Assembly: GCA_030645235.1 (NCBI GenBank)
Contig: JAUSMV010000008.1
Coordinates: forward strand, 62,001 to 126,000
Direction: 5' to 3'
DNA from: Parvibaculum sp.
GTDB taxonomy: Bacteria; Pseudomonadota; Alphaproteobacteria; Parvibaculales; Parvibaculaceae
DNA length: 64,000 nucleotides
Position 1 is the first letter of the stretch. Each line of letters opens with the position of its first letter. Position numbers and translations under genes: made by a program. Below are positions 7,404-41,667 of this stretch, piece after piece. The notes beneath the pieces were generated by a model. It saw only the letters and a list, made by a program, of their open reading frames with translations. It was not told the DNA's origin and did no database searches.

Positions 7404-8504
7404 TCAGAACGACCATGTGATACCGCCGCCGGCATAAAAGCCCAACTCGGAATGAAACGAGACACGCGCCGGGGTCCGCGTCGTCACACCGCCGACCACA
7501 CCTCCGAAATCCGGAGCGGCAATGCCTGCCACCTTGCTGTCATAGTCAACACCCGCAAAGCCCCGCATGGCCAAAGCAGGGAGCCATTTGTAAGTCAGGC
7601 TGACTTCCGTGTTTGCAACAAAGGGTGTCGCATTGTCACTGCCGGACGCGGTACCTGTTCCGGTTAAAATTCCAAACAAGGTATCATTGATGATGTCGGT
7701 TCCGTCGAACGAGGTATGACGTCTGGCAAGCCCCGCCGAACCGCCAAGCCCCAGACTCACCACCGGGGTCACATCGAATTTCAAATCAACACCTGCCCGC
7801 AGGCCATAGTCGGTCGAGCGCAACGACGTGTCAGCCGTATAAAACGAAAGCTCAGGGTGCGCACCGAGCTGCAGAACCTGAGCCATCGCCTGATCGGTTC
7901 GCGTCTCGCCGCCGAAAAGCGTCAGCGACGGCGTCAGCAAGATCTGGTCCACGCGATATTCACCAGCGATCCTGCCGCCGATCTGCCAATCGGAATGTTC
8001 AGCCGAGACATTGGATGCGACGTGACAAACCTGACCAATGCTGCAGACATAGCCGGCATTCGCCCCCGTGCCGTCAAGCATCAGCCTCGCGACGCCACCA
8101 TCTGTGAAATCGACAATACCTGTCTCCCCGCCCGTCGCACGGCCATAACGCCCCACAAATTCCACCCGCGTATTGGCGCCCATCAACGTGTCAGACAAGG
8201 CCGGCGGCAGAAAATATCCGACCGTCCCCTGCAGCCTGTAACCGTCAAGATGCTGATCAAGGCTCTGAAACGTGCCGCCGTCAGAAAATATCGGATTAGT
8301 GACCTTGCGAAAGCCGAGCCCGTAATCAGGCAGATTGACCGCCTGCCACGCGACGTCGCCGGACACATACCAGCCATCGGCTTTTACCCCGGCTTCCGGC
8401 ATCTTCGAGGCCGAAGCTTCGTCCGCATACGCTATGTCGGCATGAATCACACCCGTCGCACCGGCGAATGTCAAAAACGCCAGAGCGAATAAATTCCTTC
8501 TCAT
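7404..8504 (-). CDS. Putative outer-membrane beta-barrel protein, function unknown
   Basis: 366 residues from ATG 8504, which has GGGGG 9 bases upstream; an upstream TTG at 8525 has a weaker site. The N-terminus is a signal peptide (MRRNLFALAFLTFAGATGV, cleaved near ADIAYADEA). The rest shows alternating hydrophobic and polar residues, many Gly and aromatic residues, and a C-terminal Phe (GGGITWSF), all typical of an outer-membrane beta-barrel assembled by BAM. Two cysteines lie in VCSIGQVCH, perhaps a disulfide in an extracellular loop. I do not recognise a specific porin or transporter family. The gene stands alone, with 103 bases to the M48 gene upstream. Confidence 0.7.
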   Translation of the reverse strand: MRRNLFALAFLTFAGATGVIHADIAYADEASASKMPEAGVKADGWYVSGDVAWQAVNLPDYGLGFRKVTNPIFSDGGTFQSLDQHLDGYRLQGTVGYFLPPALSDTLMGANTRVEFVGRYGRATGGETGIVDFTDGGVARLMLDGTGANAGYVCSIGQVCHVASNVSAEHSDWQIGGRIAGEYRVDQILLTPSLTLFGGETRTDQAMAQVLQLGAHPELSFYTADTSLRSTDYGLRAGVDLKFDVTPVVSLGLGGSAGLARRHTSFDGTDIINDTLFGILTGTGTASGSDNATPFVANTEVSLTYKWLPALAMRGFAGVDYDSKVAGIAAPDFGGVVGGVTTRTPARVSFHSELGFYAGGGITWSF

Positions 8505-8607
8505 TGAACAAGCCCCCAAATTCAATTTTCAGGGCAGGACTTTAACAGGTCAGCCCTGGGCAATCTGCGCCAGCAATGCAACACATTAGGAATATTATAA
8601 CACCGTC

Positions 8608-25264: not shown

Positions 25265-26032
25265 ATGAAAAATCTCTTCGACGTCAGCGGCAAAGTCGCG
25301 CTCGTCACCGGCGGCTCACGCGGCATCGGCGAAATGATCGCGACCGGCTTTGTGGAAGCAGGCGTCAAAGTCTATATCAGCGCGCGCAAAGCGCAGGTCT
25401 GCAACGAACTGGCCGAAGAACTCTCCAAGCGCGGTACCTGCATCTCACTCCCCGCCGATCTCGGCACCAAAGAGGGTATTGAGTTTCTCGGCAAGGAACT
25501 GTCAAAGCGCGAAGAAAAGCTCGACATTCTCGTGAACAATGCAGGCGCGGCCTGGGGCCAGCCGATTGATGAATACACGGAAGACGGCTGGGACAAGGTG
25601 ATGAACATCAACCTGAAAGGCCCGTTCTTCGTCACACAAAAATTGCTGCCGCTGCTGCGCAAAGCGGGCACGGTGGATAATCCCGCCCGCGTTATCAACA
25701 TTGCCTCCATCAACGGCATCGTTCCGCCGGAGCTTGAGACTTACGCATACTCATCCTCCAAAGCCGGTTGCATCATGCTGACGCGCCACATGGCAGGCCG
25801 TCTTGCGCGCGACCACATCCTCGTCAACGCCATCGCGCCCGGACCCTTCCCGAGCCACATGATGCGCGCCACGCTTGATGCTTTTGGCGACATCATCAGA
25901 GAAGGCAACCCGCTCAAGCGCATCGGTACACCGGAAGACATTGCAGGCGTCGCGATCTTCCTCTCGTCGCGCGCCTCGGCCTACACAACCGGCGCGACGA
26001 TCCCCTGCGATGGCGGCGCTGTGGAAGTCTAG
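25265..26032 (+). CDS. Short-chain dehydrogenase/reductase
   Basis: 255 residues, classical SDR. TGGSRGIG at 15-22 binds the cofactor, NNAG follows in the central strand, the Ser lies in INIASINGI, and the catalytic YSSSK is at 162-166. Its C-terminal half (DHILVNAIAPGPFPSHMMR) and the ending PCDGGAVEV are typical of 3-oxoacyl or hydroxyacyl reductase-like SDRs. A strong site (GAGGAAA) precedes the ATG. It converges with the first of three alpha/beta hydrolases and shares four bases with it. Substrate is unknown; the context of acyl-CoA enzymes favours a 3-hydroxyacyl substrate. Confidence 0.92.
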   Translation: MKNLFDVSGKVALVTGGSRGIGEMIATGFVEAGVKVYISARKAQVCNELAEELSKRGTCISLPADLGTKEGIEFLGKELSKREEKLDILVNNAGAAWGQPIDEYTEDGWDKVMNINLKGPFFVTQKLLPLLRKAGTVDNPARVINIASINGIVPPELETYAYSSSKAGCIMLTRHMAGRLARDHILVNAIAPGPFPSHMMRATLDAFGDIIREGNPLKRIGTPEDIAGVAIFLSSRASAYTTGATIPCDGGAVEV

Positions 26033-27123
26033 GAAAACCACCGCTGACGTTGCTTCGTCAGCCATCTTCTGAAACGTCCGGGTCTGAAACGTCCGGTGGC
26101 AGGTTGCACTTCGGCAATCCCATCGGGCGCGTCAGGCGCGACAACCGCCTGAACGGCAGCAACCACATCCGACACGACCTCGGCCACACTGACCGCAGCA
26201 ATCTCAGCTTCGGCAACCTCCGGCACGAGCTGCACGCCCGTCGCGCGCTCCGCCGCCGCGACAATCGCGTCGGCAATTTGCGGTACCAGCGCCAGCGGCA
26301 AGTCATGCCCCATGCCGTCAATGACGCGGAGCTCCGCCCCTTCAATATTGGCCGCCGTATCTTCACCCGCCGCCATCGGCACCAAGGGATCATTGCGCCC
26401 GTGCAGCACAACAGTCGGCACTTTGATCTGACGCAGACGCGCGCGACGGTCGCCATCGCTCAGCACCGCCGCCATCTGCCGCATCACGCCTTGCGGATAA
26501 TAAGCGCGCGCTGCATCACGCTCGACCCATTCGCGCAAGGTTGCGGCATCGGTCGGGAAACCCGGACTGCCGATCACTTCGTATGTCTTGATGCCCTTGG
26601 CAATCACCGCTTCCGTATCATGTGAATGACCCTGCGACATGAAGAGGCTGAGCACCTTCGGGCGCGGCGGCGGCAACATCGGATTGCCGGAACTCGACAT
26701 GATCGAGGTGAGCGACAGACAGCGCGTCGGATGATCGGCCACCACGTGCTGCGCGATCATGCCACCCATCGACGCGCCGACAATATGCGCTTGCTCAATA
26801 CCCAAAGCATCGAGCAGCCCCACAGCATCATTGCCCATGTCTGACAATGAGTATGGCGCGAAAGCGGATTTTCCCGCCGCTAAGGCAAAGAACGCATCCG
26901 AAAAGGCAAAGGCACGGTCGCGCTCCAGACGTGACGACAGCCCCGCATCGCGATTGTCAAACCGGATGACGCGGTAGCCGCGCGCAACAAGTATCTCGCA
27001 GAGATCGAGCGGCCATTGGGTGAGTTGGGCACCAAGCCCCATGATGAGGAGGATCGCTTCAGCATCATCCGGCCCGAAGCTTTCATATTCGATGTCTAAT
27101 CCATTGGCCTTAATCCGCGGCAT
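26029..27123 (-). CDS. Alpha/beta hydrolase with basic C-terminal extension (tandem paralogue 1)
   Basis: 364 residues. The nucleophile elbow GASMGG has Ser at 118, the acid is in VLHGRNDPLVP, and the His is in IDGMGHDLPL. The N-terminal part (IEYESFGPDDAEAILLIMGL) is shared with the next two genes. Unlike them it carries about 60 extra C-terminal residues, first Val/Ala-rich, then Arg-rich (FRPGRFRRWLTKQRQRWFS). That extension is encoded over a 15-bp tandem repeat. A good site (AGAGG) precedes the ATG. The set resembles epoxide hydrolase or meta-cleavage hydrolase relatives; the substrate is unknown. Confidence 0.88.
   Translation of the reverse strand: MPRIKANGLDIEYESFGPDDAEAILLIMGLGAQLTQWPLDLCEILVARGYRVIRFDNRDAGLSSRLERDRAFAFSDAFFALAAGKSAFAPYSLSDMGNDAVGLLDALGIEQAHIVGASMGGMIAQHVVADHPTRCLSLTSIMSSSGNPMLPPPRPKVLSLFMSQGHSHDTEAVIAKGIKTYEVIGSPGFPTDAATLREWVERDAARAYYPQGVMRQMAAVLSDGDRRARLRQIKVPTVVLHGRNDPLVPMAAGEDTAANIEGAELRVIDGMGHDLPLALVPQIADAIVAAAERATGVQLVPEVAEAEIAAVSVAEVVSDVVAAVQAVVAPDAPDGIAEVQPATGRFRPGRFRRWLTKQRQRWFS
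26068..26096. repeat. 15-bp tandem repeat inside the hydrolase C-terminus
   Basis: TCTGAAACGTCCGG occurs at 26068-26081 and again at 26083-26096, a 15-base period. On the minus strand it encodes repeated RFRPG-type units in the Arg-rich tail of the hydrolase, so the repeat keeps the reading frame and probably lengthened the tail. Confidence 0.75.
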
Positions 27124-27236: not shown

Positions 27237-28148
27237 CTACTCTGCAGCGGCCTTGCGCTCGGCGCTTTCGGCCAGTTCTGCAATCAACTCGACATAACGC
27301 GGGCAAAGTTCAACCGGCAGATCATGTCCCATACCGTCAATCAGCACGAGTTTCGACCCCGCCACATATTTCGCCGTGTCGATACCGCCGCCCGGCGGCA
27401 CCAGCGGGTCATCATTGCCGTGAATGACAAGGAACGGAAGCTTCACCGATTTCAGCCGCTCGCAACGGCTGCCATCGCCAATGATCGCCGCATATTGGCG
27501 CGACGCCCCTTCGGGATAAAACATGTGATCATATTCGGTCGCGCATTTCTGATAGAGCGCTTCGTCTGACATGGGGTAAGCGGGGCTTTGATAAACGCGC
27601 CGACCCTTCATGTTATGACGGAGCACAACCTCACGCTCGCCGGATGTCGGGCGCTCCTGCAAGGCAACCATGGCCGCATCCGTCGCGCGTGGCACATCAG
27701 GCCCGCCGGTCGATGACATGATCGATGTTGCTGAAATAATTTTCTCAGGATGATTGATCGCCATCGACTGCACAATCATGCCGCCCATAGAGATGCCCAT
27801 GATATGCGCTTGGCTGATGCCGAGCGCATCAAGCAGTCCCATCCCGTCAGCCGCCATATCCGACAGCGTGTACGGAATGTCGGGCTTCGTCCCTTCGCGC
27901 ACGGCCTTCGCCACAAGGCTGATATCGGGAATGCCTTTGAGCTTTTCCGATTTGCCGACATCGCGATTGTCATAGCGGATGACGCGGAAACCGCGTGCCT
28001 TCAATCCGTCCATGAGAGCCACGGGCCAGCTCATCATCGTGGATGTATAACCATTGACCAGCAGCAGCGGCCTGCCATCGGCCGGACCACGATCTTCGTA
28101 ATTGATCGTGATGCCATTGGCTTTGATCGTTTTCATATCGACGCTCAT
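27237..28148 (-). CDS. Alpha/beta hydrolase (tandem paralogue 2)
   Basis: 303 residues from ATG 28148, which has GGAG 8 bases upstream; a GTG at 28157 is possible. The catalytic Ser lies in GISMGGMIVQ, the acid in HGNDDPLVPPGGG and the His in IDGMGHDLPV. The opening KANGITINYEDRGPADGRPL is shared with the neighbours, as are the DNRDVGKS and YTLSDMAADGMGLLDALG segments. It starts just past the stop of hydrolase 3 and is cotranscribed with it. The ending ESAERKAAAE is charged and short. Soluble cytoplasmic enzyme; likely ester or C-C bond hydrolase. Confidence 0.9.
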   Translation of the reverse strand: MSVDMKTIKANGITINYEDRGPADGRPLLLVNGYTSTMMSWPVALMDGLKARGFRVIRYDNRDVGKSEKLKGIPDISLVAKAVREGTKPDIPYTLSDMAADGMGLLDALGISQAHIMGISMGGMIVQSMAINHPEKIISATSIMSSTGGPDVPRATDAAMVALQERPTSGEREVVLRHNMKGRRVYQSPAYPMSDEALYQKCATEYDHMFYPEGASRQYAAIIGDGSRCERLKSVKLPFLVIHGNDDPLVPPGGGIDTAKYVAGSKLVLIDGMGHDLPVELCPRYVELIAELAESAERKAAAE

Positions 28149-28153
28149 CACGC

Positions 28154-29059
28154 TCACTCCGCCGCTTTGGCGCCGCGGGCGCGGGCAACGGCTGACGAGA
28201 CGGCATCGGCATAAGTCTGCACAAGACCGAGCGGGAAATCATGGCCCATGCCGGGCACAACGCGAAGCTCGGCACCGGGAATATTCGCCGCCGTGTCCTT
28301 GCCCCCTTCAACGGGGACGAGGGGGTCGGCTTCACCATGCACAACCACTGTTGCCACGTTGAGTTTTTTGAGCTTCTCGCGGCGATCACCATTGGCCACA
28401 ATCGCGGCCATCTGGCGCGCGACGCCCAGCGGATAGAGCGAGCGGTTGACGTCACGCGAGACCCATTGGCGCAGCGTCACATCATCGGTCGGATAGGCGG
28501 GGCTGCCGATCACCTTCCACGCATTGATGCCGCGCTCAATCGCGCCTTCAATATCGCCCGCAACCGCAGGGGTCATCAGCACAGCCATGGCTTCGGGCTT
28601 TGCCTGCGGCAGTCCGGGGTTGCCCGTGGTGGACATGATGGAGGTGAGTGACAAGGTGACGGCGGGATGATTGATCGCGACGAGCTGCGCAATCATGCCG
28701 CCCATCGACGCACCGACAATATGCGCCTTTTTAATACCGAGGGCTGAGAGAAGACCCACAGCGTCGTTCGCCATATCATCCAGCGTATAAGCAGACTTTG
28801 CAGGCTGGCCCGACATCAGCGCGCCGAAAATCGCTGCCATGTCCGGCATGCCCGCGGCCTCGAACTTCGTCGAAAGGCCGATGTCACGATTGTCAAAACG
28901 CACGACATGAAAGCCGCGTGAGACAAGTTCATTGCAAAACTCGACCGGCCACATGGTCAGTTGTGCGCCAAGCCCCATGATGAGCAGCACTGTCTCATTG
29001 CTCTTGTCGCCGAATGTCTCATATTCAATTGTAATGCCGTTCGCCTGAACCTGCGCCAT
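28154..29059 (-). CDS. Alpha/beta hydrolase (tandem paralogue 3)
   Basis: 301 residues. Nucleophile elbow GASMGGMIAQ, acid in VVHGEADPLVPVEGG, His in PGMGHDFPLGL. The start is supported by AGGGAGA 7 bases before the ATG at 29059. It is the first gene of the pair with hydrolase 2, and its sequence is closest to hydrolase 1 in the elbow region. Three nearly full-length paralogues side by side suggest recent duplication with divergence of substrate range. Confidence 0.9.
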   Translation of the reverse strand: MAQVQANGITIEYETFGDKSNETVLLIMGLGAQLTMWPVEFCNELVSRGFHVVRFDNRDIGLSTKFEAAGMPDMAAIFGALMSGQPAKSAYTLDDMANDAVGLLSALGIKKAHIVGASMGGMIAQLVAINHPAVTLSLTSIMSTTGNPGLPQAKPEAMAVLMTPAVAGDIEGAIERGINAWKVIGSPAYPTDDVTLRQWVSRDVNRSLYPLGVARQMAAIVANGDRREKLKKLNVATVVVHGEADPLVPVEGGKDTAANIPGAELRVVPGMGHDFPLGLVQTYADAVSSAVARARGAKAAE

Positions 29060-29180
29060 GAACCGTCTCCCTGAAGTTGTTTTATGTTCTTTGAAAAAAG
29101 TCTATCAGCCGCCTTGCGTCCTGAGCAGACAAAACACATAATTAATGAAAAACATTAATCAGGAAACGGGGCCGGAGCCA

Positions 29181-30341
29181 ATGCCCGAAGATGAAAAACC
29201 GGATGCGCCTGCGATGCTTGCGGGCCTGAAACTCTACGGGCTGGACCTGTCCTATTTCACAGGCAAGTTCGAGGCCTTTGTCCGTTACAAGAACATCCCG
29301 CATCAGCGCATTGAATTCTCCCTCACGCTGATGCGCGAGATCGCGCGCCGCACGGGTCTGGCCCAAATGCCTGCCGTCGAACTCCCCGACGGGCGCTGGA
29401 TGTCCGACAGCACACCGATGATCGAATGGCTTGATGCCAATACCAACGGCCCGCGCGTCATTCCGGCAGATCCTGTGCAGCAATTTCTGAGCCTGCTTGT
29501 CGAAGACTATGCCGACGAATGGCTCTGGCGACCGGCGCTGCATTATCGCTGGTCATACAAGCCCGACGCGCGCCTCATGGGCCATCGCATCGCCAGCGAA
29601 ATGCTCCGCGATGTACGGGCCCCTCTGTGGCTGCGACGCTTCTTCGTCATTCGCCGCCAGCAACGCGTCTATCTCAGACACGATGGCGTCACGCCCGCCA
29701 CAATCCCGCATATCGAAAGCACCTATCGCCGCAATCTCGCCTTCCTCGACACGATCTTCGCCGCGCGCCCCTTCATGCTGGGTGATCGTCCGACGCTCGC
29801 GGACTTCGGTTTCTTCGCCTCCATGTTCCGCCACTTCGGACTTGATCCCACACCCGCCCGCATCATGCGCGACGAAGCCCCTCATGTGTATGAATGGCTC
29901 GGCCGCATGTGGAACGCCAAAGCCTCAAAACTCAATGGCGCATTGGTTGACGAAGGCACTGTGCCTGCTGACTGGCAACCGATCCTCACCGATATCGGCG
30001 CGAGCTACCTGCCCTATCTCAACGCCAATGCCCGCGCCTATCAAAAGGGCGACACGCATTACAGGTTTGAAACCGAAGGCACCACCTATCACCTGCCCGT
30101 GCATCGCTACCGCGTCTGGTGCCTCGAACGCCTGCAAGGCCGCTGGCGGGCCCTCGCACCCGATATGCAGGCCCGCGTCAGCGCCATTCTCGCCGGCACA
30201 AATTGCATTGAGACGCTTACCACCGTCGCGAATCTAAAATCAGGCTTCGACCCGGATCATCTCTCACCCTTCTTCAAGCCAGGCCATATCTGGTCGGACA
30301 AAAACGGACCAAAGGAAACGCACCATGACCCTCACCTATGA
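29181..30341 (+). CDS. Large glutathione S-transferase-like protein
   Basis: About 386 residues from ATG 29181; ATG 29145 is possible but has no visible site. The N-terminal half has a thioredoxin-like GST domain (KLYGLDLSYFTGKFEAFVRY, then LAQMPAVELPDGRWMSDST). The C-terminal half is a longer helical domain with RPFMLGDRPTLADFGFFASM, the usual GST N-cap region. There are about 150 extra residues compared with a standard GST, so it resembles GST-fold proteins with a modified C-terminus. The first residues lack the usual catalytic Ser, Tyr or Cys in the expected place. It overlaps the next gene by 17 bases. Confidence 0.8.
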   Translation: MPEDEKPDAPAMLAGLKLYGLDLSYFTGKFEAFVRYKNIPHQRIEFSLTLMREIARRTGLAQMPAVELPDGRWMSDSTPMIEWLDANTNGPRVIPADPVQQFLSLLVEDYADEWLWRPALHYRWSYKPDARLMGHRIASEMLRDVRAPLWLRRFFVIRRQQRVYLRHDGVTPATIPHIESTYRRNLAFLDTIFAARPFMLGDRPTLADFGFFASMFRHFGLDPTPARIMRDEAPHVYEWLGRMWNAKASKLNGALVDEGTVPADWQPILTDIGASYLPYLNANARAYQKGDTHYRFETEGTTYHLPVHRYRVWCLERLQGRWRALAPDMQARVSAILAGTNCIETLTTVANLKSGFDPDHLSPFFKPGHIWSDKNGPKETHHDPHL

Positions 30342-30975
30342 CCTCTTCTGGTCCTTCCGCTCGCCCTATTCCTATCTCGCCACACCGCGTCTCGCGGAGC
30401 TTGAGCGTGTTTACGACGTGAAGGCCAATGTGCGGCCCGTCTATCCGATTGCGGTGCGCATGGACGGGTTCTTCAAAACAGTGAACCCCATGTGGCCGCC
30501 CTATCTCATCAAGGACACCTACCGCACCGCCGAAATGTTGGGGCTTCCCTATGCATGGCCCTCGCCCGATCCGGTGCTGATGGACATGAAATCCGGCGAA
30601 GTCCCCAAGGACCAGCCCTATATCTACCGTCTTGTGCGCCTCGGCGCGGCGGCGGCTGAAAAAGGCCACGGCCTCGCCTTTCTCAAGGAAATCAGCACGC
30701 TCATTTTCGGCGGCACACGCAACTGGCACGAAGGCGACCATCTGAAGGACGCAACCGCCCGCGCCGGACTTGATCTTGCCGAACTGGACCGCGCCATCGA
30801 AGCCAATCCCGATCACTACGAGGCCATCATCGTCGCCAATGAGGCCGCCCAGAAGGCAGCAGGCCATTGGGGCGTGCCCTTGATGGTATTCGACGGCGAG
30901 CCCTTTTTCGGGCAGGACCGTATTGATCACCTTGTCTGGCGCATGGAGAAAAAGGGCCTGAAAAAGCGTAGCTGA
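30325..30975 (+). CDS. 2-hydroxychromene-2-carboxylate isomerase family protein (DsbA fold)
   Basis: 216 residues, thioredoxin-like fold of the HCCA isomerase/DsbA group, which uses glutathione to isomerise aromatic ring-fission products. It opens YDLFWSFRSPYSYLATPRL, where SFRSPYSY holds the Ser in the position of the glutathione-activating residue. GVPLMVFDGEPFFGQDRIDH is the C-terminal cis-Pro region. It overlaps the GST-like gene by 17 bases, so they are translated together. A role in aromatic breakdown is inferred from the family. Confidence 0.88.
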   Translation: MTLTYDLFWSFRSPYSYLATPRLAELERVYDVKANVRPVYPIAVRMDGFFKTVNPMWPPYLIKDTYRTAEMLGLPYAWPSPDPVLMDMKSGEVPKDQPYIYRLVRLGAAAAEKGHGLAFLKEISTLIFGGTRNWHEGDHLKDATARAGLDLAELDRAIEANPDHYEAIIVANEAAQKAAGHWGVPLMVFDGEPFFGQDRIDHLVWRMEKKGLKKRS

Positions 30976-31035: not shown

Positions 31036-32748
31036 ATGAAGCGCGACTTGGAAGAAATGGCATCGACCGCCTACGATCTTGTGATCGTGGGCGGTGGTGT
31101 GACAGGGGCCACAACGGCATGGGACGCGAGCCTTCGCGGTCTCAAAGTGGCGCTTCTGGAAAAAGATGATTTTGCGCATGCAACCACATCAGGCTCATCC
31201 AAACTCATGCATGGGGGCCTGCGCTATCTCGTCAACGGCGAATTGAAACTCGTGCGTGAATCGCTGCGTGAACGGCGCATCTGGGAAAACATCGCGCCCC
31301 ATATGGTCCATCCGCTCCCCTTCATGCTGCCCACCTATGGCCGCGGCATGAAAAGCGGATTGATCCTCGCCATCGGTCTCCTGTTCTACGACCTCTTGTC
31401 CTATGACCGGAATTTCGTTTCCGACGATGACAAGAAAATTCCGGGCTATCGCACCATCTCGCGCAAGGAAGCGCTGGAGATCATGCCCTCACTCAAGACC
31501 GAAGGCCTGACCGGCGGCAAAATTTATTACGACTGCCAGATGTTTGCGCCTGAACGGCTTTGCCTTGAACATATCGAAGGTGCCGCCGAATATGGCGCAG
31601 ACATCGCCAACTATGCCGAAGTCACAGACTTCACGCGTGAGGGCACGCGCATCACCGGCGTCAACGTCACAGACAAGGCAACGGGCAAAACCCACACCAT
31701 CAATGGCAAGGTGACAATCAACGCCGCCGGACCCTGGGCCGATGAACTCATGCGCTCGGGTGAAAACGGCAAACCCTCGCGCGGCCTCATCCGCTCCAAA
31801 GGCATCCACATCATCACGCGCGAGCTCACCGGCAAAAATGCGCTCGCCATCCAGTCTGACATTGGCGGGCACTTCTTTGTCATCCCGTGGCGCGGCCATA
31901 CGATCATCGGCACGACAGATGCCGTGTTCAAAGATGAACCGGACCGCGTCGGCGTCACCGAAGAGGACATCCGCGACTTTCTCTCTGTCATCAATGACGG
32001 ATTGCCGGGCCTCCATCTGAAGCGCGAAGATGTGCTGCATCACTATGTCGGCATCCGTCCGCTCATTGACAACGACCCCGATGCGACCGGCCCCAAAGAC
32101 AGTTACAAAGCAAGCCGCGAGGCTGAGGTCTGTGACCATAAAGTCCTGAGCGGCATAGACGGTTTCATCTCGGCGCTCGGCGGCAAATGGACGACCTCGC
32201 GCCACCTTGCCGAACAGATCGTCGATATGGCCGCCAAAAAAACGGGCCATACAGCAAAATGCGAAACCCATTGCACGCCCGTATATGGCGGCGAAATCGG
32301 GCGGCTTAAAAGCTTCATCACCCGCGCACAAAAACGCCACGCCCATCTCGGCGCCGACATTGTTGAAAATCTTGTGCATTTCTACGGCAGCCGCATCGAC
32401 GAAGTGCTGGCCACCGCCGACGAAAGGCCCGAGGAGCGCGCGAACCTCCTGCGCCGGATCACTTCCGACAATCCCACCATCGGCGCGCAGATCGTCCATG
32501 CCGTGCGTCACGAAATGGCAACGCATTTATCCGACGTCATCTTCCGCCGCACAGGTCTCGGCACGTTGGGTCATCCAGGCAGCGAGATGCTGAACCGCGT
32601 CGCCGATATCATGGCGCGCGAATTGAATTGGGATGAGACGCGCATCGCCACCGAAATGGCAACGACAAGCAGCCTGTTTGAAACGCAGACGCGCCGCAAT
32701 GAAGGCGACATGCAGAGCGCAAGCATGGCCGAGGCGACCGGCGCATGA
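31036..32748 (+). CDS. glpD: FAD-dependent glycerol-3-phosphate dehydrogenase
   Basis: 570 residues. The FAD-binding Rossmann motif is GGGVTG at 19-24 (DLVIVGGGVTGATTAWDASL). LEKDDFAHATTSGSS and KLMHGGLRYLVNGELKLVRE follow, and GGKWTTSRHLAEQIV is near the middle. The enzyme oxidises sn-glycerol 3-phosphate to dihydroxyacetone phosphate and passes electrons to quinone at the inner membrane. Its C-terminal domain is full length. It heads a three-gene run with a lipid kinase (4-base ATGA overlap) and an alkyl-DHAP-synthase-like flavoprotein. Confidence 0.95.
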   Translation: MKRDLEEMASTAYDLVIVGGGVTGATTAWDASLRGLKVALLEKDDFAHATTSGSSKLMHGGLRYLVNGELKLVRESLRERRIWENIAPHMVHPLPFMLPTYGRGMKSGLILAIGLLFYDLLSYDRNFVSDDDKKIPGYRTISRKEALEIMPSLKTEGLTGGKIYYDCQMFAPERLCLEHIEGAAEYGADIANYAEVTDFTREGTRITGVNVTDKATGKTHTINGKVTINAAGPWADELMRSGENGKPSRGLIRSKGIHIITRELTGKNALAIQSDIGGHFFVIPWRGHTIIGTTDAVFKDEPDRVGVTEEDIRDFLSVINDGLPGLHLKREDVLHHYVGIRPLIDNDPDATGPKDSYKASREAEVCDHKVLSGIDGFISALGGKWTTSRHLAEQIVDMAAKKTGHTAKCETHCTPVYGGEIGRLKSFITRAQKRHAHLGADIVENLVHFYGSRIDEVLATADERPEERANLLRRITSDNPTIGAQIVHAVRHEMATHLSDVIFRRTGLGTLGHPGSEMLNRVADIMARELNWDETRIATEMATTSSLFETQTRRNEGDMQSASMAEATGA

Positions 32749-33710
32749 ACGCTTCCGTCTCCACACCGCACATTGCCGCCATCGTCAATCCGCGCTCCGG
32801 CGGCGGCGCCACAGGTCGCTCATGGCGCCTGATCGCAGCCGGTCTCGAAGCCGAGCTTGGCCCCGTCCGCGCGCATTTCACAAGCTCACCTTCAACGCCG
32901 CGCTATCTGCCTGCGACCGAACTCACACGCGAAGCGCTCAAAGCCGGCGCGCAACTTGTGATCGCGGTGGGCGGCGACGGCACGATCAATGAAGTTATGA
33001 ACGGCTTTTTTGAAAATGGCGTCGCAATCAATCCTGACGCCCATATCGCCATCCTCAACACCGGCACGGGCGGCGACTTTCGCAAGACGTTCGATCTGCC
33101 GCCGGAGCTTGAAGGCTGCATCAAGCGCATCGGTCAGGGCACGACAAAACAAATCGACCTCGGCCTCCTCACCTTCACCAGTGCAGACGGCGGCGAGGGC
33201 ACACGCTATTTCAACAATATCGCGAGCTTCGGCCTGTCCGGCGAAGTCGTGCGCACGATCAACCGCGCCAAATATTCAAAAATATTCGGGGGCGCTTTCG
33301 CGTTCTTCTGGGCAACGCTCAAAGCCTCTTTCTTCTACAAGACAAAACCCGTGCGCATCGTCACCGATGCGGGCTTTGACGAAACCATGAATGTCGGCGT
33401 CTGCGCTGTCGCCAATGGCATGTTCTTCGGCGGCGGCATGATGATCGCGCCAACCGCTGTGCCCGATGACGGCTTGTTCGACATCACCATCATGCGCGAC
33501 ACAACCTTCAGCGATATGCTGTCAGGCGGCGGTTCCATGCGCGACGGCACGCATGTCAACGGGCCTAAAGTGCTGACCCTGCGCGCACGCTCCGTTACCG
33601 CAACACCTGTCGGCCCCGATCCCGTCTTGCTCGATGTGGACGGCGAAGGACCGGGCCGCCTGCCCGCACGATTTGACATCCTACCTGCGGCTATCACGCT
33701 GCGCTGCTGA
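32745..33710 (+). CDS. Diacylglycerol-kinase-family lipid kinase
   Basis: 321 residues of the DAGK_cat/YegS family. NPRSGGG at 15-21 and GGDGTINEV at 76-84 are the ATP-site motifs, followed by ILNTGTGGDFRKTFDLP. The C-terminal half has the beta-rich LCB5/YegS domain (FGGGMMIAPTAVPDDGLFDI and a later PVLLDVDGEGPGRLP). Such kinases phosphorylate diacylglycerol or other lipids at the membrane. The start overlaps the GlpD stop by 4 bases, so it is translationally coupled. The link to glycerol phosphate metabolism is inferred from this. Confidence 0.92.
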   Translation: MNASVSTPHIAAIVNPRSGGGATGRSWRLIAAGLEAELGPVRAHFTSSPSTPRYLPATELTREALKAGAQLVIAVGGDGTINEVMNGFFENGVAINPDAHIAILNTGTGGDFRKTFDLPPELEGCIKRIGQGTTKQIDLGLLTFTSADGGEGTRYFNNIASFGLSGEVVRTINRAKYSKIFGGAFAFFWATLKASFFYKTKPVRIVTDAGFDETMNVGVCAVANGMFFGGGMMIAPTAVPDDGLFDITIMRDTTFSDMLSGGGSMRDGTHVNGPKVLTLRARSVTATPVGPDPVLLDVDGEGPGRLPARFDILPAAITLRC

Positions 33711-33735
33711 CCTCCAACAAAAGGCGAAACAAAAA

Positions 33736-35409
33736 ATGACAATCGAGAGAGCATCGCTGCGTTGGAACGGCTGGGGTCCCGTCAATCAGGAGATTATGCT
33801 GCCCGACAACGCGCCGCAATGGGCCTGGATGGCGGAAGCCATCGGGCTGAAATCTCTGCCCGACACCAAAGCCAAACCACTTGCCGAAATCACAATGGCA
33901 CCGTGCCGCCTGAGCGAAACGATCCTTGAGCGATTGCGCAAAATCGCAGGCGCAGAGCAGGTCAAAACCGACAATTACGAGCGCGCCTTCCATGCGCGCG
34001 GCAAGTCCTATCATGATCTTCTTTATCTCCGCGCCGGCCTCCTCGACATGGCACCCGACGTTGTTGTCTATCCGCGCAATGCCGACGAAGTCCTCGACAT
34101 TGTGAAACTTGCGAGCGTCGAAGACATCACGCTCATCCCGTTCGGCGGCGGCTCGTCTGTCGTCGGCGGCACCAATGCGATGGCGAAGTCACTCGGCGGC
34201 GGCGTCATCACACTTGATACAACATTGATGACGCGCGTGATCCAGATCGACAAAATCGCGATGACCGCGACACTCGAAGCAGGCATCTATGGTCCGGCCC
34301 TCGAAGCCGCGCTGCAAAAACACGGCGTGACACTCGCGCATTATCCGCAGAGCTTTCAGTTCTCGACGCTGGGCGGCTGGATTGCCGCGCGCGGCGCAGG
34401 CCAGCAATCCAACCGCTATGGCAAAGCGGAGAAATGGCTGATCTCGGCAAAGCTCGCGACGCCCAAAGGCATGTGGACAACGGAATCAACGCCAGCCTCC
34501 GCCGCCGGTCCCAATCTCAATCAGCTTGTGGCAGGCTCCGAAGGCACGCTCGGCGTCATCTGCGAAGCGACCGTCAAAATCCATGAGATCCCAGCACGCA
34601 AAGATTATCGCGGCTATCTCTTCAAAGATTTCAAATCCGGCGTCGAAGCCGCACGCCGCATCAACCATGCGGAAATTCCCGTCGCCATGGTCCGCTTGTC
34701 AGACGCCAAGGAAACCTATTTCTTTCAGGCCTTCTCATCGACTTCGTCGCAGACAAGCCTCAAAGCAAAGCTCCAACGCGCCTATTTGAAATATCGCGGC
34801 TTTGGTGAAACCCCCTGCCTCATGCTGGTCGGTCACGAAGGCGATGATGACACCGTTGCCTGGGCGCAATCACGCACAGAAGCGATCTGCACCTCACTCG
34901 GCGCGATGAAGCTTGGCACGAGTGCCGGTCAACGCTGGTATCACGGCCGCTTCGGCTCGCCCTATTCGCGCGACCCGATGATGGATCACGGCATCGGCAT
35001 CGACACGCTCGAAACCTCGACGCGCTGGTCCAACATCGAGAACCTGCGCGAGAAAGTGGTCGCTGCCATTGAAGGCGCGATCAGCGCCAATGTTCCCCAT
35101 GTGGACGGACGCGGCATCGTCATGGCCCATGTCAGCCATTCCTATCCTGACGGTGCGAGCCTCTATTTCACCTTTGTTTTCCCCCGCCAGCTCGACCGCG
35201 AAGTCGCGCAATGGCAGGCGATCAAACGCGCAGCGTCGGACGCACTCTTGGAAAACAAAGGCACGATCAGCCACCATCACGGCGTCGGCGTCGATCACAC
35301 GCCATGGCTCAAAGAAGAAAAGGGCCAGATCGGTTTTGACCTTCTGAAAAAGATCAAAACCGAAATGGACCCCAAGGGCATTATGAATCCGGGGAAACTT
35401 TTAGGTTAG
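33736..35409 (+). CDS. FAD-linked oxidase of the alkyl-DHAP synthase (AGPS) type
   Basis: 557 residues. The vanillyl-alcohol-oxidase-type FAD domain includes VVVYPRNADEVLDIVKLA and LIPFGGGSSVVGGTNAM. The cap domain has PYSRDPMMDHGIGIDTLETS and RWYHGRFGSP, and the active-site HHH tract is at 513-515 (SHHHGVGVDHTPWL). All are hallmarks of alkylglycerone-phosphate synthase, which swaps an acyl group on DHAP for a fatty alcohol to form the ether bond. Short bacterial homologues can be lactate or glycolate oxidases, but the HHH tract and the GlpD/kinase context favour AGPS-like chemistry. ATG 33736 fits better than earlier in-frame starts. Confidence 0.85.
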   Translation: MTIERASLRWNGWGPVNQEIMLPDNAPQWAWMAEAIGLKSLPDTKAKPLAEITMAPCRLSETILERLRKIAGAEQVKTDNYERAFHARGKSYHDLLYLRAGLLDMAPDVVVYPRNADEVLDIVKLASVEDITLIPFGGGSSVVGGTNAMAKSLGGGVITLDTTLMTRVIQIDKIAMTATLEAGIYGPALEAALQKHGVTLAHYPQSFQFSTLGGWIAARGAGQQSNRYGKAEKWLISAKLATPKGMWTTESTPASAAGPNLNQLVAGSEGTLGVICEATVKIHEIPARKDYRGYLFKDFKSGVEAARRINHAEIPVAMVRLSDAKETYFFQAFSSTSSQTSLKAKLQRAYLKYRGFGETPCLMLVGHEGDDDTVAWAQSRTEAICTSLGAMKLGTSAGQRWYHGRFGSPYSRDPMMDHGIGIDTLETSTRWSNIENLREKVVAAIEGAISANVPHVDGRGIVMAHVSHSYPDGASLYFTFVFPRQLDREVAQWQAIKRAASDALLENKGTISHHHGVGVDHTPWLKEEKGQIGFDLLKKIKTEMDPKGIMNPGKLLG

Positions 35410-36989
35410 CCCGCATCCACGATCTTTCTGAGTTCCGCCTTGGCAATCTTTTCAAGCGTCGAACGCGGCAACTCAGCCACGATGCGCACATCACGCGGCA
35501 CTTTGAAATCCGCAAGTCCTTTGCGGCAGGCGGCCATCACCTGATCTTTGAGATCGGCAGGGGCCGCCGCCTCGCCGCCCGGCACGAGCAGAAAGACCAC
35601 GGGCACTTCATCAAGCATCTTGTCTTTGCGCGCAACGACGGCACATTCCTGAATGCCGGGAACGGTCATCACAACGCGTTCGATTTCCGACGCGGCGACG
35701 TTCTCGCCGCCGACTTTCAGCATGTCCTTGTCGCGGTCAGCAAAACGGATATAGCCATCTGCCAGCAACTGCACGCGGTCGCCCGTGATGAAGAAGCCTT
35801 TATCATCAAAGCTCGATTCAGTCGCTTCGGGATTGTTCAAATACTCTTTGAACAAAGAGAGACCCGGAATGCCGCGAATGAGCAACCCGCCAACCTCACC
35901 CACCGCTGTCGGTGTGCCATCATCATCCATAATCGCGATTTCATAGGCAGGCGCGGGCTTGCCGATGGACATGGCAGGCGCGGGCACATGCACGTCTGAG
36001 ACAATCCCGTGTGTGATCGTTTCCGTCATGCCCCACCAGCCGATGGTCTGCACGCGGAAATGCGCATCCGTCGGCAGAGAGGCAACGCCATTGCCCCAGA
36101 GACGATAAAAATGCTTCTCCGGCACCGGATGCTCGGCAAGTGCGCGCAGGCAGAACGGCACCATCGAGGACCATGTGCAGCGATGTTTAAGCGACACCGG
36201 CCAGAAGCGCGAGGCTGAAAAACGCGGCTGCACCACAATCGTCCCGCCGACCCAGAGCGTCGCAAGCACCGAATAGGACTGCGCATTGGTATGAAAGAGC
36301 GGCAGATAGACAAGATGCACATCGGCACCTGTCAACTCTTCATGCACCGCGCACATTTTAGCACCCCAAAGCGCATTGGCATGGGTCCAGACAACGCCTT
36401 TGGGCCGCGAAGTTGTGCCCGACGTATATTGCACACCGATATTGATGTCAGGCTCAGGTGCGCGCAGAGGCAAAGGTTCCGTCGCATAAAGAGAGGCAAA
36501 AGGTTCGGCTCCTTTCGGCAAGGCCGCCGATGCAGGCGTGCCGTTGTCGCTCTCCGTCACCACAAGCCACTTCAATCCTTTGCAGCTTGCCTGCACAAGC
36601 GCCGCAAATTTCGGCTGCGTGATCGCACCGACAGTGCCCGCATGGCTTGAGAAATAATCAAGCTCGTCGGCCACCGAGCGCGCATTAGTGGTGACAGCCA
36701 CTGCACCAAGATGCGCGCAGGCATACCAGGCAATGAGGCTCTCAGGGCAATTGTCGAGATGAACCAGCACACGCTCGCCCGCTTTGACGCCGCGCGCCTT
36801 GAGACCGGCGGCAACCTGCGCGGTCTCACGCGCAAATTGCGCATAGGTCCATGTCCGCCCCTCGCCCTCAAACGGTTCCCAGATCATAAAGGGATGATCG
36901 GGCCGCGCCTTGGCATGTGTGTCGAGCAAATGCGGAATATCGAAACCGGAAAAGGGATGAACCACGGGATTGAGAAGCTTGGGCCTCAT
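35406..36989 (-). CDS. AMP-forming acyl-CoA synthetase
   Basis: 527 residues, ANL superfamily. The P-loop motif is VQYTSGTTSRPKGVVWTHAN; a later GWWGMTETITHG holds the adenylate-binding Thr-Glu pair. The hinge and C-terminal domain carry GDRVQLLADGYIRFADRDKD, MLKVGGENVAASEIE and a final Lys in STLEKIAKAELR, which is the thioesterification lysine. It activates a carboxylic acid to its CoA thioester. Its start overlaps the HSL-type esterase stop by 4 bases (ATGA), so an ester-derived acid may be its substrate. It converges with, and overlaps by 4 bases, the AGPS-type gene. Confidence 0.93.
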   Translation of the reverse strand: MRPKLLNPVVHPFSGFDIPHLLDTHAKARPDHPFMIWEPFEGEGRTWTYAQFARETAQVAAGLKARGVKAGERVLVHLDNCPESLIAWYACAHLGAVAVTTNARSVADELDYFSSHAGTVGAITQPKFAALVQASCKGLKWLVVTESDNGTPASAALPKGAEPFASLYATEPLPLRAPEPDINIGVQYTSGTTSRPKGVVWTHANALWGAKMCAVHEELTGADVHLVYLPLFHTNAQSYSVLATLWVGGTIVVQPRFSASRFWPVSLKHRCTWSSMVPFCLRALAEHPVPEKHFYRLWGNGVASLPTDAHFRVQTIGWWGMTETITHGIVSDVHVPAPAMSIGKPAPAYEIAIMDDDGTPTAVGEVGGLLIRGIPGLSLFKEYLNNPEATESSFDDKGFFITGDRVQLLADGYIRFADRDKDMLKVGGENVAASEIERVVMTVPGIQECAVVARKDKMLDEVPVVFLLVPGGEAAAPADLKDQVMAACRKGLADFKVPRDVRIVAELPRSTLEKIAKAELRKIVDAG

Positions 36990-37921
36990 TTAAGCGCCTC
37001 TTTCAGCGCCTTCGCCGCCGCCTTCACAGCTTCGCGACCCACATCAAACGCCGCCTGCAAATTGAAGAAGCCGTGGATCATGCCATCGTAATTCACATGC
37101 ACCGTGTCAACGCCAGCCGCCTTCAGCGCGTCGGCATAGGCACGACCCTCATCGCGCAAAGGATCAAAGCCCGCCGTCACCACATAAGCCTTGGGCAATC
37201 CAGCAAGCGAGGCGGCTTTCAGGGGCGCGATGCGCGGATCGTTGCGATCAGCGCCTTTGAGGTAATGATCGAAAAACCAGATCATGCCGTCGCGTTCCAG
37301 AAAATATCCGCTCGCATTGGCCGTGTAGGAGGCAGTGTCGATATTCGTGTCGGCGACGGGATAGATCAGAAGCTGGAAGGAAATCTTCGGGCCTTTTTCA
37401 GCTTTGGCAATCTGCGAAACAACAGCGGCGAGATTGCCGCCTGCGCTGTCGCCCGACACCGCAATGCGCGTCACATCCGCCCCGATCGACGCCCCGTTGG
37501 CCGCGACCCATTTCACCGCCGCATAGCAATCATCAACGGCGGCAGGAAACACATGTTCAGGGGCGAGCCGATAATCCACCGCCACGACTTTGCAGCCCGC
37601 CTCATTGGCAAATGAGCGGCAAAGCGCATCATGCGTTTCAAGATCGCCGATCACCCAACCGCCGCCATGGAAATAAACAAGCACCGGCAGAGTGCCGCTG
37701 CCGGCGGCGACCGGCGTGTAAATCCGCACAGGGATCTCGCCTGCGGGTCCGGGAATCGTCCGGTCCTCGACAGAACCGATCGGCACGCCCTGCGCGTCAA
37801 ACGCAGCAGCAAGCCCGCGATACATTTCGCGACCCTCCGCGACCGGCAGATCGATAATCCGCGGTCCCGGATTTGCGGCCATGCCGTCGAGCAATGCTTT
37901 GACTTGCGGATCCAGCGCCAT
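36986..37921 (-). CDS. HSL-type alpha/beta hydrolase (esterase family IV)
   Basis: 311 residues. The family IV oxyanion motif HGGGWVIGD, nucleophile GDSAGGN, acid in a later DPLRDEG and His in YDGMIHGFF are all present, so it should be an active esterase. N-terminal cap region: PVRIYTPVAAGSGTLPVLVY. A strong site (GGGAG) lies before the ATG. The downstream ligase overlaps its stop, which suggests an ester is cleaved and the freed acid activated to a CoA thioester. Confidence 0.93.
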   Translation of the reverse strand: MALDPQVKALLDGMAANPGPRIIDLPVAEGREMYRGLAAAFDAQGVPIGSVEDRTIPGPAGEIPVRIYTPVAAGSGTLPVLVYFHGGGWVIGDLETHDALCRSFANEAGCKVVAVDYRLAPEHVFPAAVDDCYAAVKWVAANGASIGADVTRIAVSGDSAGGNLAAVVSQIAKAEKGPKISFQLLIYPVADTNIDTASYTANASGYFLERDGMIWFFDHYLKGADRNDPRIAPLKAASLAGLPKAYVVTAGFDPLRDEGRAYADALKAAGVDTVHVNYDGMIHGFFNLQAAFDVGREAVKAAAKALKEALK

Positions 37922-39801: not shown

Positions 39802-41667
39802 TCAAACGACGATCACGTCAGCGGGCGGTGTCGCTTCATAAAGACGATCGACAAGATGCGCGCGGCGCTCAAGCGTGGCGCGCTGATTGACATAACCTTT
39901 GTCCGTCATTTCATGCCCGTCAATCGACGGCGGCTCGGTCATCAGAATGATGCGCTCGATGCGCGTTGACGATCCGCCACCGGCTTTGTTGTGTTTCGTC
40001 AGATGATCGCGCAAATGCGCCACCACTTTCGGATGCGCCACAATCTCATCAACACTTGCTGTTGCAGGCAGACCCGCCACAGCGCGCGCGGCTTCCACAT
40101 TGGGCCATGCGAGCAGCGCAATGAACGGCTTGTCCAACCCGCAGACCACAGCATCCTGCATCAGCGGCGTGCAGGCGGCCACCACATCGGCACGCAATGT
40201 GCCGGTCGAGACCCATGTGCCCGACGAAAGTTTGAAATCTTCCGTCACGCGGCCGTCGAACACGAGACCTTCTTCGGGACGATCAGGGTCGAGAAATTTC
40301 GCGGCGTCGCCGAGCGAATAGTAACCTTCCTCGTCAAACGCCTCCGCCGTCTTCTTCGGATCATTCAAATAGCCCGGCGTCACGGTCGGCCCTTTGACGC
40401 GCACTTCGAGCTTCGTACCATTGGGCACGAGCTTCAGCGTGATGCCCGGCAGCGGCAAGCCGATCAAGCCGACGCGCTCGGTGATCCAATGCACAACCGT
40501 AATGCCCTGCGTCTCCGTCGCGCCATACATGGTGGTCAGCGGAATGCGATGGCCGGTTTCCGCAATCGCCAGCGCCTGCATCCGGTCATAAATATCGCTT
40601 GAGAGGGTCGCGCCGCCATAGCCCATATATTCGAGCTTGGCGAAGAAGCAACGACGCAGTTCAGGGTCTTTTTCCATCGCATCAGCGAGCATGGCAAAAG
40701 CAACAGGAGCTGAACCGAAGACGCGCGGACTGACGTCATAAAGATTTTTGATCGTCTCACCGAACAAAGCGGGGATCGGCTTGCCATTATCAAGATGCAC
40801 CGTGCCGCCCGCATTGATATTGCCGTTAAAGGCAATGTTACCAGCCGAAATATGGTTCCACGGCATCCAGTCAAGGCTTTGCGGCACATCTTCAGGATCG
40901 GCCTCTTCCGTGCGCAGCGCCTCTTGAGCGGCGACCAACGCCATCATCATGCGATGCGTCTGGAGCGCGCCTTTCGGCATGCCGGTTGAACCCGACGTGA
41001 AAAGATATTTCGCCACCGTATCATGTGTGATCGCATCCATCGAGCGGGCGACATCTTGACTAATCGGTGTCTTGATGAGGTCGGCATAGTTGATTGTCTT
41101 GCGGCCTTCGACTGTGCCTTCAACCGTCACAACTTCCACATCGTCCGGCATCACTGTCGTGATGGCACGCGCGAACACCGCCGCCTTGTCGGCAAACACC
41201 ATTTTCGGTTTTGCCAGAGCCACAACATGACGGAGCTTGGCAAAATCAGCACTCATAATCGAATAAGGCACGCTGACAGGTGCGACAGGCACACCGGCCT
41301 TCATCGCGCCAAGCATCATCACCGCATGGGCAATAGAGTTGCTCGACAGGATCATCAGCGGCGTCGTCTGATCAAGCCCGCGCGCAAGCAGCGCCGACGC
41401 GACTGCGGCTGACGCGCGCGCCGCTTCGCCGTAAGTGATGTAGGACCACTCACCCTTGGCATCACGCTCGCCGATAAAATGACGATTGGGATAGAGCGCC
41501 GCTTTCTCATCCAGCAGATGCACCGTCGAGCGTTTCATCTCACCCAACGGATAATCCGACGCCACATAGATGGTGCCGTCATCCTTGCGCGTCACTGTGA
41601 TCTTCGGCGCTTTCTGTTTCAGCGGCTTGAACGGCGGCAGCGTTTCTTTTTCAACAGGACGGCTCAT
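39802..41667 (-). CDS. Feruloyl-CoA synthase-like AMP-forming ligase
   Basis: 621 residues. The ANL core has P-loop YLFTSGSTGMPKGALQTHRM and a later TTMYGATETQGITV with the adenylate-binding Thr-Glu pair. Overall length and features (a long C-terminal region with STGTLRADVVAACTPLMQDA) match the FerA group that activates ferulate and other aromatic or long side-chain acids. The substrate is a guess from family. The start has GAGGAAA 5 bases upstream. It is the first gene of a pair with DUF924 and runs parallel to the second ligase. Confidence 0.88.
   Translation of the reverse strand: MSRPVEKETLPPFKPLKQKAPKITVTRKDDGTIYVASDYPLGEMKRSTVHLLDEKAALYPNRHFIGERDAKGEWSYITYGEAARASAAVASALLARGLDQTTPLMILSSNSIAHAVMMLGAMKAGVPVAPVSVPYSIMSADFAKLRHVVALAKPKMVFADKAAVFARAITTVMPDDVEVVTVEGTVEGRKTINYADLIKTPISQDVARSMDAITHDTVAKYLFTSGSTGMPKGALQTHRMMMALVAAQEALRTEEADPEDVPQSLDWMPWNHISAGNIAFNGNINAGGTVHLDNGKPIPALFGETIKNLYDVSPRVFGSAPVAFAMLADAMEKDPELRRCFFAKLEYMGYGGATLSSDIYDRMQALAIAETGHRIPLTTMYGATETQGITVVHWITERVGLIGLPLPGITLKLVPNGTKLEVRVKGPTVTPGYLNDPKKTAEAFDEEGYYSLGDAAKFLDPDRPEEGLVFDGRVTEDFKLSSGTWVSTGTLRADVVAACTPLMQDAVVCGLDKPFIALLAWPNVEAARAVAGLPATASVDEIVAHPKVVAHLRDHLTKHNKAGGGSSTRIERIILMTEPPSIDGHEMTDKGYVNQRATLERRAHLVDRLYEATPPADVIVV

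Follow-up and report, generated by a model that had tools for sequence, protein, structure and literature searches.

A three-gene run in a 64,000-nucleotide stretch of bacterial DNA (contig JAUSMV010000008.1, positions 62,001 to 126,000; the whole stretch is called the window below) encodes a glycerol-3-phosphate dehydrogenase of the GlpD type, a lipid kinase of the YegS/DGK type and a flavoprotein related to alkylglycerone-phosphate synthase (AGPS). The 3.83 Mb source genome belongs to what we take to be a species of Parvibaculum. We tentatively favour, with a confidence that stays a little short of an even chance, the reading that the three genes form a module for the salvage or cleavage of ether glycerolipids rather than for their synthesis. 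The comparisons themselves show which genes are present and conserved, how the proteins are related, that catalytic residues are retained and that these loci stand apart from AGPS loci with biosynthetic partners; the substrates, the order of the steps and the direction are what we infer from gene content, which cannot itself prove a direction. AGPS works via a covalent adduct with flavin adenine dinucleotide (FAD), and alkylglycerol kinase activity is known. In the proposed route, neighbouring lipases would free 1-O-alkylglycerol from ether lipids and the YegS-type kinase, whose proposed substrate is alkylglycerol (or diacylglycerol), would convert it to 1-O-alkyl-glycerol-3-phosphate. The GlpD-type enzyme would then oxidise the 2-hydroxyl to give 1-O-alkyl-dihydroxyacetone phosphate (alkyl-DHAP), passing electrons to the quinone pool. 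Finally, the flavoprotein would run the covalent FAD-substrate chemistry in reverse, with water or a fatty acid taking the place of the alkoxy group: the products, a fatty alcohol and either DHAP or acyl-DHAP, would enter central and beta-oxidation metabolism. All three genes lie on the plus strand, and the spacing given in the preliminary description agrees with the coordinates: glpD and the kinase gene overlap by 4 bases (ATGA) and a gap of 25 bases separates the kinase stop from the flavoprotein ATG. A mechanical listing of open reading frames puts the flavoprotein start further upstream, at 33634; the start in the table is the one taken here. The kinase scores 127.2 bits with the family of YegS/Rv2252/BmrU lipid kinases (TIGR00147), above the cut-off of 118.65, and its sequence contains GGDGT.

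Gene content around AGPS-like genes separates into two classes. We compared 141 AGPS-like loci (L144 was dropped as a copy of L054); the 80 named loci are those that rank highest in similarity to Dictyostelium AGPS, the first row of the scan, and many rows are related, which makes the classes something other than an unbiased census. Neighbour profiles were built from the compared loci themselves, the Pfam names of neighbours rest on one representative each, class labels use score thresholds of our own choosing, and genes were called by longest open reading frame, with some missed in G+C-rich DNA. A GlpD gene lies within 6 kb in 77 of the 141 loci, which come from several phyla, and a YegS/DGK or FGGY kinase is also present in 70 of these 77. 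Another 28 loci, called type S here, have an acyltransferase and/or a fatty-acyl reductase (FAR) as partners, and 36 have neither gene set. Both sets together were found in none of the 141 loci, and no acyltransferase or FAR match of any kind was found beside the 77 GlpD-class loci; a kinase also stands beside 3 of the 28 type-S loci. The window locus is of the GlpD class, and neither a FAR nor an acyltransferase was found within its operon.

Synthesis of ether lipids needs an enzyme that makes acyl-DHAP and one that makes fatty alcohol, and the type-S class looks biosynthetic. L072, which had entered the 28 solely via an acyltransferase at least 4.6 kb away, was set aside. Among the 27 loci that remain, 24 carry the acyltransferase and 21 a reductase, either a NAD_binding_4 FAR or one resembling 3-hydroxy-3-methylglutaryl-CoA (HMG-CoA) reductase (FcrA-type); a PlsC-type acyltransferase (PF01553 in the tested representative) lies on the same strand directly upstream of the AGPS gene in 23. 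The partners often also include a protein of ∼900 residues (NAD_binding_4 and HAD in the tested representative) or the HMG-CoA-reductase-like protein. In PMC11948995, expression experiments identify an HMG-CoA-reductase-like protein of this sort as a fatty-acyl-CoA reductase (FcrA); the paper also suggests that it has a role in ether lipids, and notes an AGPS gene near one. In our sample, FcrA-type genes adjoin acyltransferase and AGPS genes in Verrucomicrobiota, Planctomycetota, KSB1 and one uncultured bacterium (see the table), and these sets look like bacterial operons for ether-lipid synthesis. The acyltransferase/FAR loci are a different class; the GlpD class combines an oxidising enzyme with a kinase, a pair that fits the order of a breakdown route. 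The biosynthetic direction implied by the preliminary description was not borne out: AGPS genes linked to acyltransferase or FAR fall in another clade (see below), and GlpD shares a locus with such partners in none of the 141 loci.

The genome that carries the window was searched for parts of a synthesis route. No protein with PF00368 (the HMG-CoA-reductase-like domain) was found in it, and no strong fatty-acyl-CoA reductase: the best PF07993 match reaches 42.8 bits as against 160 bits in a type-S locus, and the type-S FAR profile, run like the acyltransferase profile on the window and on loci L179–L189, gave at most 16 bits on the genome's own PF07993 candidates. No acyltransferase of PlsB/GNPAT size was found in the genome either; its five PF01553 proteins have open frames of at most 413 aa. 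These searches leave room for other reductases or for unlinked supply. A search for hydroxylases of the alkylglycerol monooxygenase (AGMO) type found two proteins of the FA_hydroxylase family with frames of 291 and 316 aa and was uninformative. We favour salvage or cleavage over synthesis because the GlpD-class loci of the sample carry no biosynthetic partners, because searches of the genome found neither a strong FAR of the two kinds looked for nor an acyltransferase of PlsB/GNPAT size, and because lipase, hydrolase and ligase genes neighbour the operon. The pairing of AGPS with three separate GlpD lineages, and the joint activation of the P. aeruginosa cluster and phospholipase C PlcA by one regulator (PMC8151288), are counted on the same side.

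Several points weigh against cleavage. AGPS is known as a synthetic enzyme, and the literature consulted documents neither an activity for any GlpD-class organism nor cleavage as the physiological direction of an AGPS. The window GlpD is the sole full-length GlpD match in its genome (the other match covers 40 residues at E 8.8e-4), and of 9 further alphaproteobacterial genomes searched, 7 likewise have no GlpD besides that of the operon, G030 and G087 having two matches; as the only GlpD of the genome, it therefore also serves ordinary glycerol-3-phosphate oxidation. In the approximately unbiased (AU) test, a tree that joins the alphaproteobacterial clade to the biosynthetic clade is not rejected (p 0.059), and a GlpD-bearing row from Chloroflexi, L114, adjoins the biosynthetic clade in both trees described below. 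The best of the five acyltransferases, L186, reaches 125 bits with the acyltransferase profile of type S, and acyltransferase and fatty alcohol could be supplied by unlinked genes or by alkane oxidation. Proteins of the short-chain dehydrogenase/reductase (SDR) type could serve as alkyl-DHAP reductases: one at 25265-26032, ∼5 kb from glpD, matches SDR family c4 at 331 bits, three more reading frames of the window match it less well, and an SDR gene lies directly beside AGPS in several type-S loci. For the related genes of Pseudomonas aeruginosa, the authors of PMC8151288 proposed the forward direction, with glycerol as the start and alkylglycerone phosphate as the end, and mutants lacking PA3026-PA3024 grew normally in the media that were tried; according to PMC9830446, mammalian GPD2 supplies DHAP for ether lipids.

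The AGPS catalytic residues kept in the flavoprotein, the acyltransferases, the SDR-type proteins, mammalian GPD2 and the direction proposed for P. aeruginosa speak for ether-lipid biosynthesis. Here GlpD would make DHAP, an unlinked acyltransferase would turn it into acyl-DHAP, the flavoprotein would install the ether bond using a fatty alcohol that alkane or wax metabolism provides, and the kinase would return lipid phosphates. We consider this scheme as a whole rather unlikely. The bacterial AGPS loci that do bear such partners belong to another clade and none of them has GlpD in the sample of 141, no GlpD-class locus has an acyltransferase or FAR beside it, and the genome lacks both PF00368 and a strong PF07993 protein. 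The SDR family, moreover, is broad: seven comparable type-S SDRs are at most 34% identical to the SDRs of other loci, and the nearest one in the window keeps its distance from glpD.

As had been supposed, the flavoprotein is an AGPS-family protein; it is not a lactate or glycolate oxidase. Its top solved relatives are AGPS of Dictyostelium (2uuu, 333 bits) and guinea pig (4bby, 277 bits); the next in the PDB is a D-lactate dehydrogenase at 115 bits. It contains the N-terminal WNGWG motif, and the HHH tract noticed earlier at residues 513-515 is confirmed by the alignment, in which R320, R412, Y477, H513 and H515 stand opposite guinea-pig R419, R515, Y578, H615 and H617; the guinea-pig R419, R515, Y578 and H615-H617 are active-site positions. 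Judged by alignment, the protein keeps the catalytic residues of AGPS (HHH, the catalytic Tyr and the phosphate/substrate Arg). By domains, nearest structures and the HHH/Tyr/Arg set it belongs, by homology, to the AGPS family in the broad sense. An identity as D-lactate or glycolate oxidase is ruled out by these structures and by tree placement: the genome's own paralogues of the GlcD/DLD type, in which EHG replaces HHH, branch off outside the AGPS family at 100/100.

Two trees of AGPS-like proteins were calculated, a quick one with 83 rows and a careful one with 51 rows that leaves out a long-branched third clade. Eukaryotic AGPS and the acyltransferase/FAR-linked bacterial loci form one clade (support of 99 in the SH-like approximate likelihood-ratio test with 83 rows, 100/100 with 51 rows), which includes a few rows having neither gene set. 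The window flavoprotein lies within an alphaproteobacterial clade of GlpD loci (99 with 83 rows; 100/98 with 51 rows); GlpD loci of the gammaproteobacterial type and those of actinobacteria make up one further clade each. A biosynthetic AGPS orthologue would be expected inside the clade of the eukaryotic enzymes, with an acyltransferase or FAR gene alongside. The window protein is placed outside that clade, though a sister position is not rejected (p 0.059), and its gene has no acyltransferase or FAR beside it. The branching order among the three GlpD-linked groups is not resolved at the base of the tree, and a single clade for all three is not rejected (AU p 0.193).

The biosynthetic clade and each of the three GlpD-linked groups differ consistently at 14 alignment positions, among them (in guinea-pig numbering) 303 D to Q, 321 M to Q, 527 V to T, 595 Y to W and 632 S to G. 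Such differences would also suit a flavoprotein that uses the AGPS scaffold for a new reaction, with another nucleophile or with an aryl or short-chain glycerol ether, and a further AGPS-like clade does sit with carboxylate-uptake genes. We regard this as improbable: the kinase and GlpD partners point to a substrate of the glycerol-3-phosphate type, the catalytic residues are kept, and several of the 14 positions are common to the third clade and may represent the ancestral state. The third clade itself keeps the Arg/Tyr/HHH set (Tyr and HHH in 13 of 13 rows). Its member L081 neighbours a CaiB-type CoA transferase and a tripartite tricarboxylate transporter, and L082 neighbours hydroxyacid-type dehydrogenases. 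More matches, outside the tree, come from plasmids whose hosts are Xanthobacter dioxanivorans and Sphingopyxis macrogoltabida, names that suggest degradation of ethers or polyethylene glycol; the third-clade and related plasmid proteins may be enzymes that cleave ether carboxylates.

The dehydrogenase of the run has the fold of GlpD (EC 1.1.5.3), with DAO and DAO_C domains and aligned active-site residues, and scores 309.2 bits with the NCBIfam equivalog for glycerol-3-phosphate dehydrogenase, under its cut-off of 360. All GlpD rows aligned carry the same residues opposite E. coli H50, R54, Y55, R317, R332, K354 and T356, which we take to be the functional residues of that enzyme. The GlpDs of the clusters form three separate lineages and not one clade, and the arrangement of GlpD beside AGPS also takes three forms; the pattern hints at repeated pairing or at an ancient divergence. 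Two GlpD matches were found in 9 of 11 gammaproteobacterial-type genomes, and two or three in the 7 Actinomycetota genomes reached via L132, L133, L138, L143, L152, L158 and L171. Opposite E. coli positions 57 and 61, the E and F usual in non-cluster GlpDs are replaced mostly by A/V/G and V/L/I, respectively, in all three cluster groups, some F or Y being kept at position 61; position 59 is mostly G, in all actinobacterial and gammaproteobacterial-type rows and in 9 of 13 alphaproteobacterial ones. The changes at positions 57, 59 and 61 could make room for a larger substrate, although the positions were picked post hoc and we give them little weight.

The survey of genomes for linkage of the three genes that had been proposed finds it conserved within the class, from which 385 alphaproteobacterial genomes were drawn, and across phyla, in the 141 compared loci. 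Within the genus, 24 of 27 genomes (the host's own included) have a full-length copy of the flavoprotein. In the class-wide draw, 38 of 385 genomes encode an AGPS-like protein at E ≤1e-60 and 14 encode the flavoprotein at ≥43% identity; the three genes stand together in 11 of these 14, the own genome again included. The exceptions are G030, without the kinase, G087, without GlpD, and G353, without both. In L040 and L039 (from G030 and G034, which belong to the same family), the GlpD and AGPS-like genes adjoin with no kinase between them. No GlpD was found near the AGPS-like gene in the 15 genomes examined of the other 24. The locus of G353 (L061, gene 8007-9722) has lost the catalytic Tyr and HHH and kept the two Arg; among 15 alphaproteobacterial rows it is the single one having neither GlpD nor kinase nearby, and we count it in favour of cleavage.

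A draw of 299 genomes across the phylum contains 16 (including that of the host) with a match at E ≤1e-50. Twelve loci outside the class (L083-L094) have the order AGPS-GlpD-FGGY kinase, with a DGK-type kinase behind in 4 of the 12; they belong to the same phylum but to another class, show the PA3026-type gene order, and are taken to be Gammaproteobacteria. Annotated plasmid records of Streptomyces fungicidicus and Tsukamurella show AGPS-like and YegS/DGK genes, with a TetR regulator and a GlpD oriented divergently to them, and an AGPS-like gene with DGK and an opposite-strand GlpD is found in many Actinomycetota (Mycobacterium, Nocardia, Rhodococcus, Streptomyces and Actinomadura). A chance adjacency of unrelated genes is ruled out by this recurrence across genomes and phyla.

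The surroundings of the operon are conserved as well. Neighbours were counted for 23 alphaproteobacterial loci (one duplicate, five family codes) and for 119 other AGPS-like loci. Alpha/beta hydrolases of family c5 were found near 22 of the 23 as against 3 of the 119, the LipP1-type lipase family c7 near 22 versus 1, the DsbA-domain family c11 near 21 versus none, and the acyl-CoA ligase family c6 near 20 versus 3. The window has members of all four (see the table), the ligase gene next to the flavoprotein being the best of four window matches to c6 at 728 bits and one of the three hydrolases (28154-29059) an Abhydrolase_1 protein. It also encodes an acyl-CoA dehydrogenase and an enoyl-CoA hydratase, and the stretch with four ligase-like genes, the first beside the lipase-family gene, is a dense region for activation of fatty acids or xenobiotics. 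A GST-like protein (29145-30341) ends 17 bases inside the DsbA-domain gene, directly upstream of glpD, and matches beta-etherase weakly at 21 bits, far below the cut-off of 440. A scan for promoters and terminators found nothing above shuffled sequences.

Lipase and acyl-CoA ligase neighbours would also suit a general turnover of glycerolipids that acts on esters: the kinase and GlpD would work on mono- or diacylglycerol products, lysophosphatidate would be oxidised to acyl-DHAP, and the flavoprotein would hydrolyse or exchange the acyl group. We see this as a long shot. Simple esterases need no oxidation, which would make a covalent-flavin ether enzyme superfluous, and the window flavoprotein has kept the HHH/Tyr/Arg set.

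Table. Features of the window and of compared loci; coordinates are window positions unless a locus is named
Feature	Coordinates	Strand	Remarks
glpD-like gene	31036-32748	+	570 aa; FAD-dependent glycerol-3-phosphate dehydrogenase; PF01266 (DAO) + PF16901 (DAO_C)
YegS/DGK-type lipid kinase gene	32745-33710	+	321 aa; PF00781 (DAGK_cat) + PF19279 (YegS_C)
AGPS-like flavoprotein gene	33736-35409	+	557 aa, ATG at 33736; FAD_binding_4 + FAD-oxidase_C
DsbA-domain protein	30325-30975	+	upstream of glpD; PF01323; family c11, 413 bits
Three alpha/beta hydrolases	26029-27123, 27237-28157, 28154-29059	-	divergent; all family c5, 416-472 bits
Acyl-CoA ligase-like gene	35406-36989	-	convergent, overlaps flavoprotein stop by 4 bases; PF00501 + PF13193
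LipP1-type hydrolase, hormone-sensitive-lipase family	36986-37921	-	NF058653 416.8 bits (cut-off 350); family c7, 550 bits
Four acyl-CoA ligase-like genes within 24 kb	35406-36989, 39802-41667, 41778-43349, 57066-58865	-	
FcrA-type genes	L099 6926-8143; L100 7107-8252; L102 3976-5178; L103 3472-4725; L115 3899-5053		
Third-clade AGPS-like genes	L081 6007-7614; L082 6241-7584; L096 8065-9822		

Compared with eukaryotic AGPS (2uuu, 4bby), the window protein is likewise a two-domain FAD protein with WNGWG, HHH, Tyr and the two active-site Arg, but it lies outside the eukaryotic clade supported at 100/100, differs at the 14 class-typical positions, and has GlpD and a kinase for neighbours in place of acyltransferase/FAR partners. 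The linked set as such is no novelty, contrary to what had been expected. In PMC8151288 (2021), the AraC-type regulator GliR of P. aeruginosa activates PA3026-PA3023 together with the phospholipase C gene plcA, and AGPS-like, GlpD-like and YegS-like genes stand together there as described; the window run, with the three gene kinds side by side, is a cluster of this kind. Unlike the window, PA3026-PA3023 as published includes an additional FGGY kinase and has the AraC regulator, and in our loci of this type (L083-L094) HQH replaces HHH in 8 of 8 aligned proteins, at 32–37% identity. A table in PMC4564863 lists Rv2249c (glpD1), Rv2250c (a regulator), Rv2251 (a flavoprotein) and Rv2252 (a diacylglycerol kinase) consecutively, all four among regulated genes with listed values of 2.1 to 2.3. 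Here too a flavoprotein and a diacylglycerol kinase gene adjoin glpD1; in sets of the mycobacterial type, GlpD and a TetR regulator are divergent and the GlpD is of a separate lineage.

A further comparison is Myxococcus xanthus, in which ether lipids fall slightly when MXAN_1676 is disrupted (PMC9131029). MXAN_1676-MXAN_1674 resembles the window operon in that an AGPS homologue is part of an operon; its partners are a FAR/GNPAT-like protein and a protein of the NAD-dependent epimerase family, whereas the window operon has no FAR or acyltransferase. This arrangement is a biosynthetic one, and the type-S class matches it. While linkage in P. aeruginosa is already known, its breadth, the class separation and the catabolic reading were not found in the literature searched; among the top-ranked results, mostly from non-subscription literature, none reported two such classes or an AGPS homologue that cleaves ethers. 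A search for lipidomic work gave nothing of use on the ether lipids of P. aeruginosa.

It is possible, though we would not call it probable, that cleavage of alkylglycerol ethers by a kinase, a GlpD-type oxidation and an AGPS-like flavoenzyme running in reverse is an oxygen-independent pathway widespread in bacteria. If so, it would be present in Parvibaculum and its relatives, in Pseudomonas-type Gammaproteobacteria, and in mycobacteria and other Actinomycetota. AGMO, a tetrahydrobiopterin-dependent membrane monooxygenase, is called the sole enzyme known to cleave alkylglycerol ethers in PMC3617469 and PMC7911779; the outcome proposed here would be the same cleavage of the ether bond, reached without a monooxygenase of this kind. 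Because AGMO is given as the only such enzyme, cleavage by an AGPS-like protein would be new, and the pathway would be the second known way to cleave alkylglycerol ethers. Bacterial AGPS homologues are being counted as potential for ether-lipid synthesis, for example in a metagenome survey of the Black Sea (PMC11868695); should a large class among them prove catabolic, counts of this sort would mispredict the makers of ether lipids. The split suggests a rule for annotation, namely GlpD plus a kinase versus an acyltransferase plus a fatty-acyl reductase beside the AGPS gene. If the reading is true, it would provide a concrete enzymatic route by which ether lipids may be consumed in soils, sediments and hosts.

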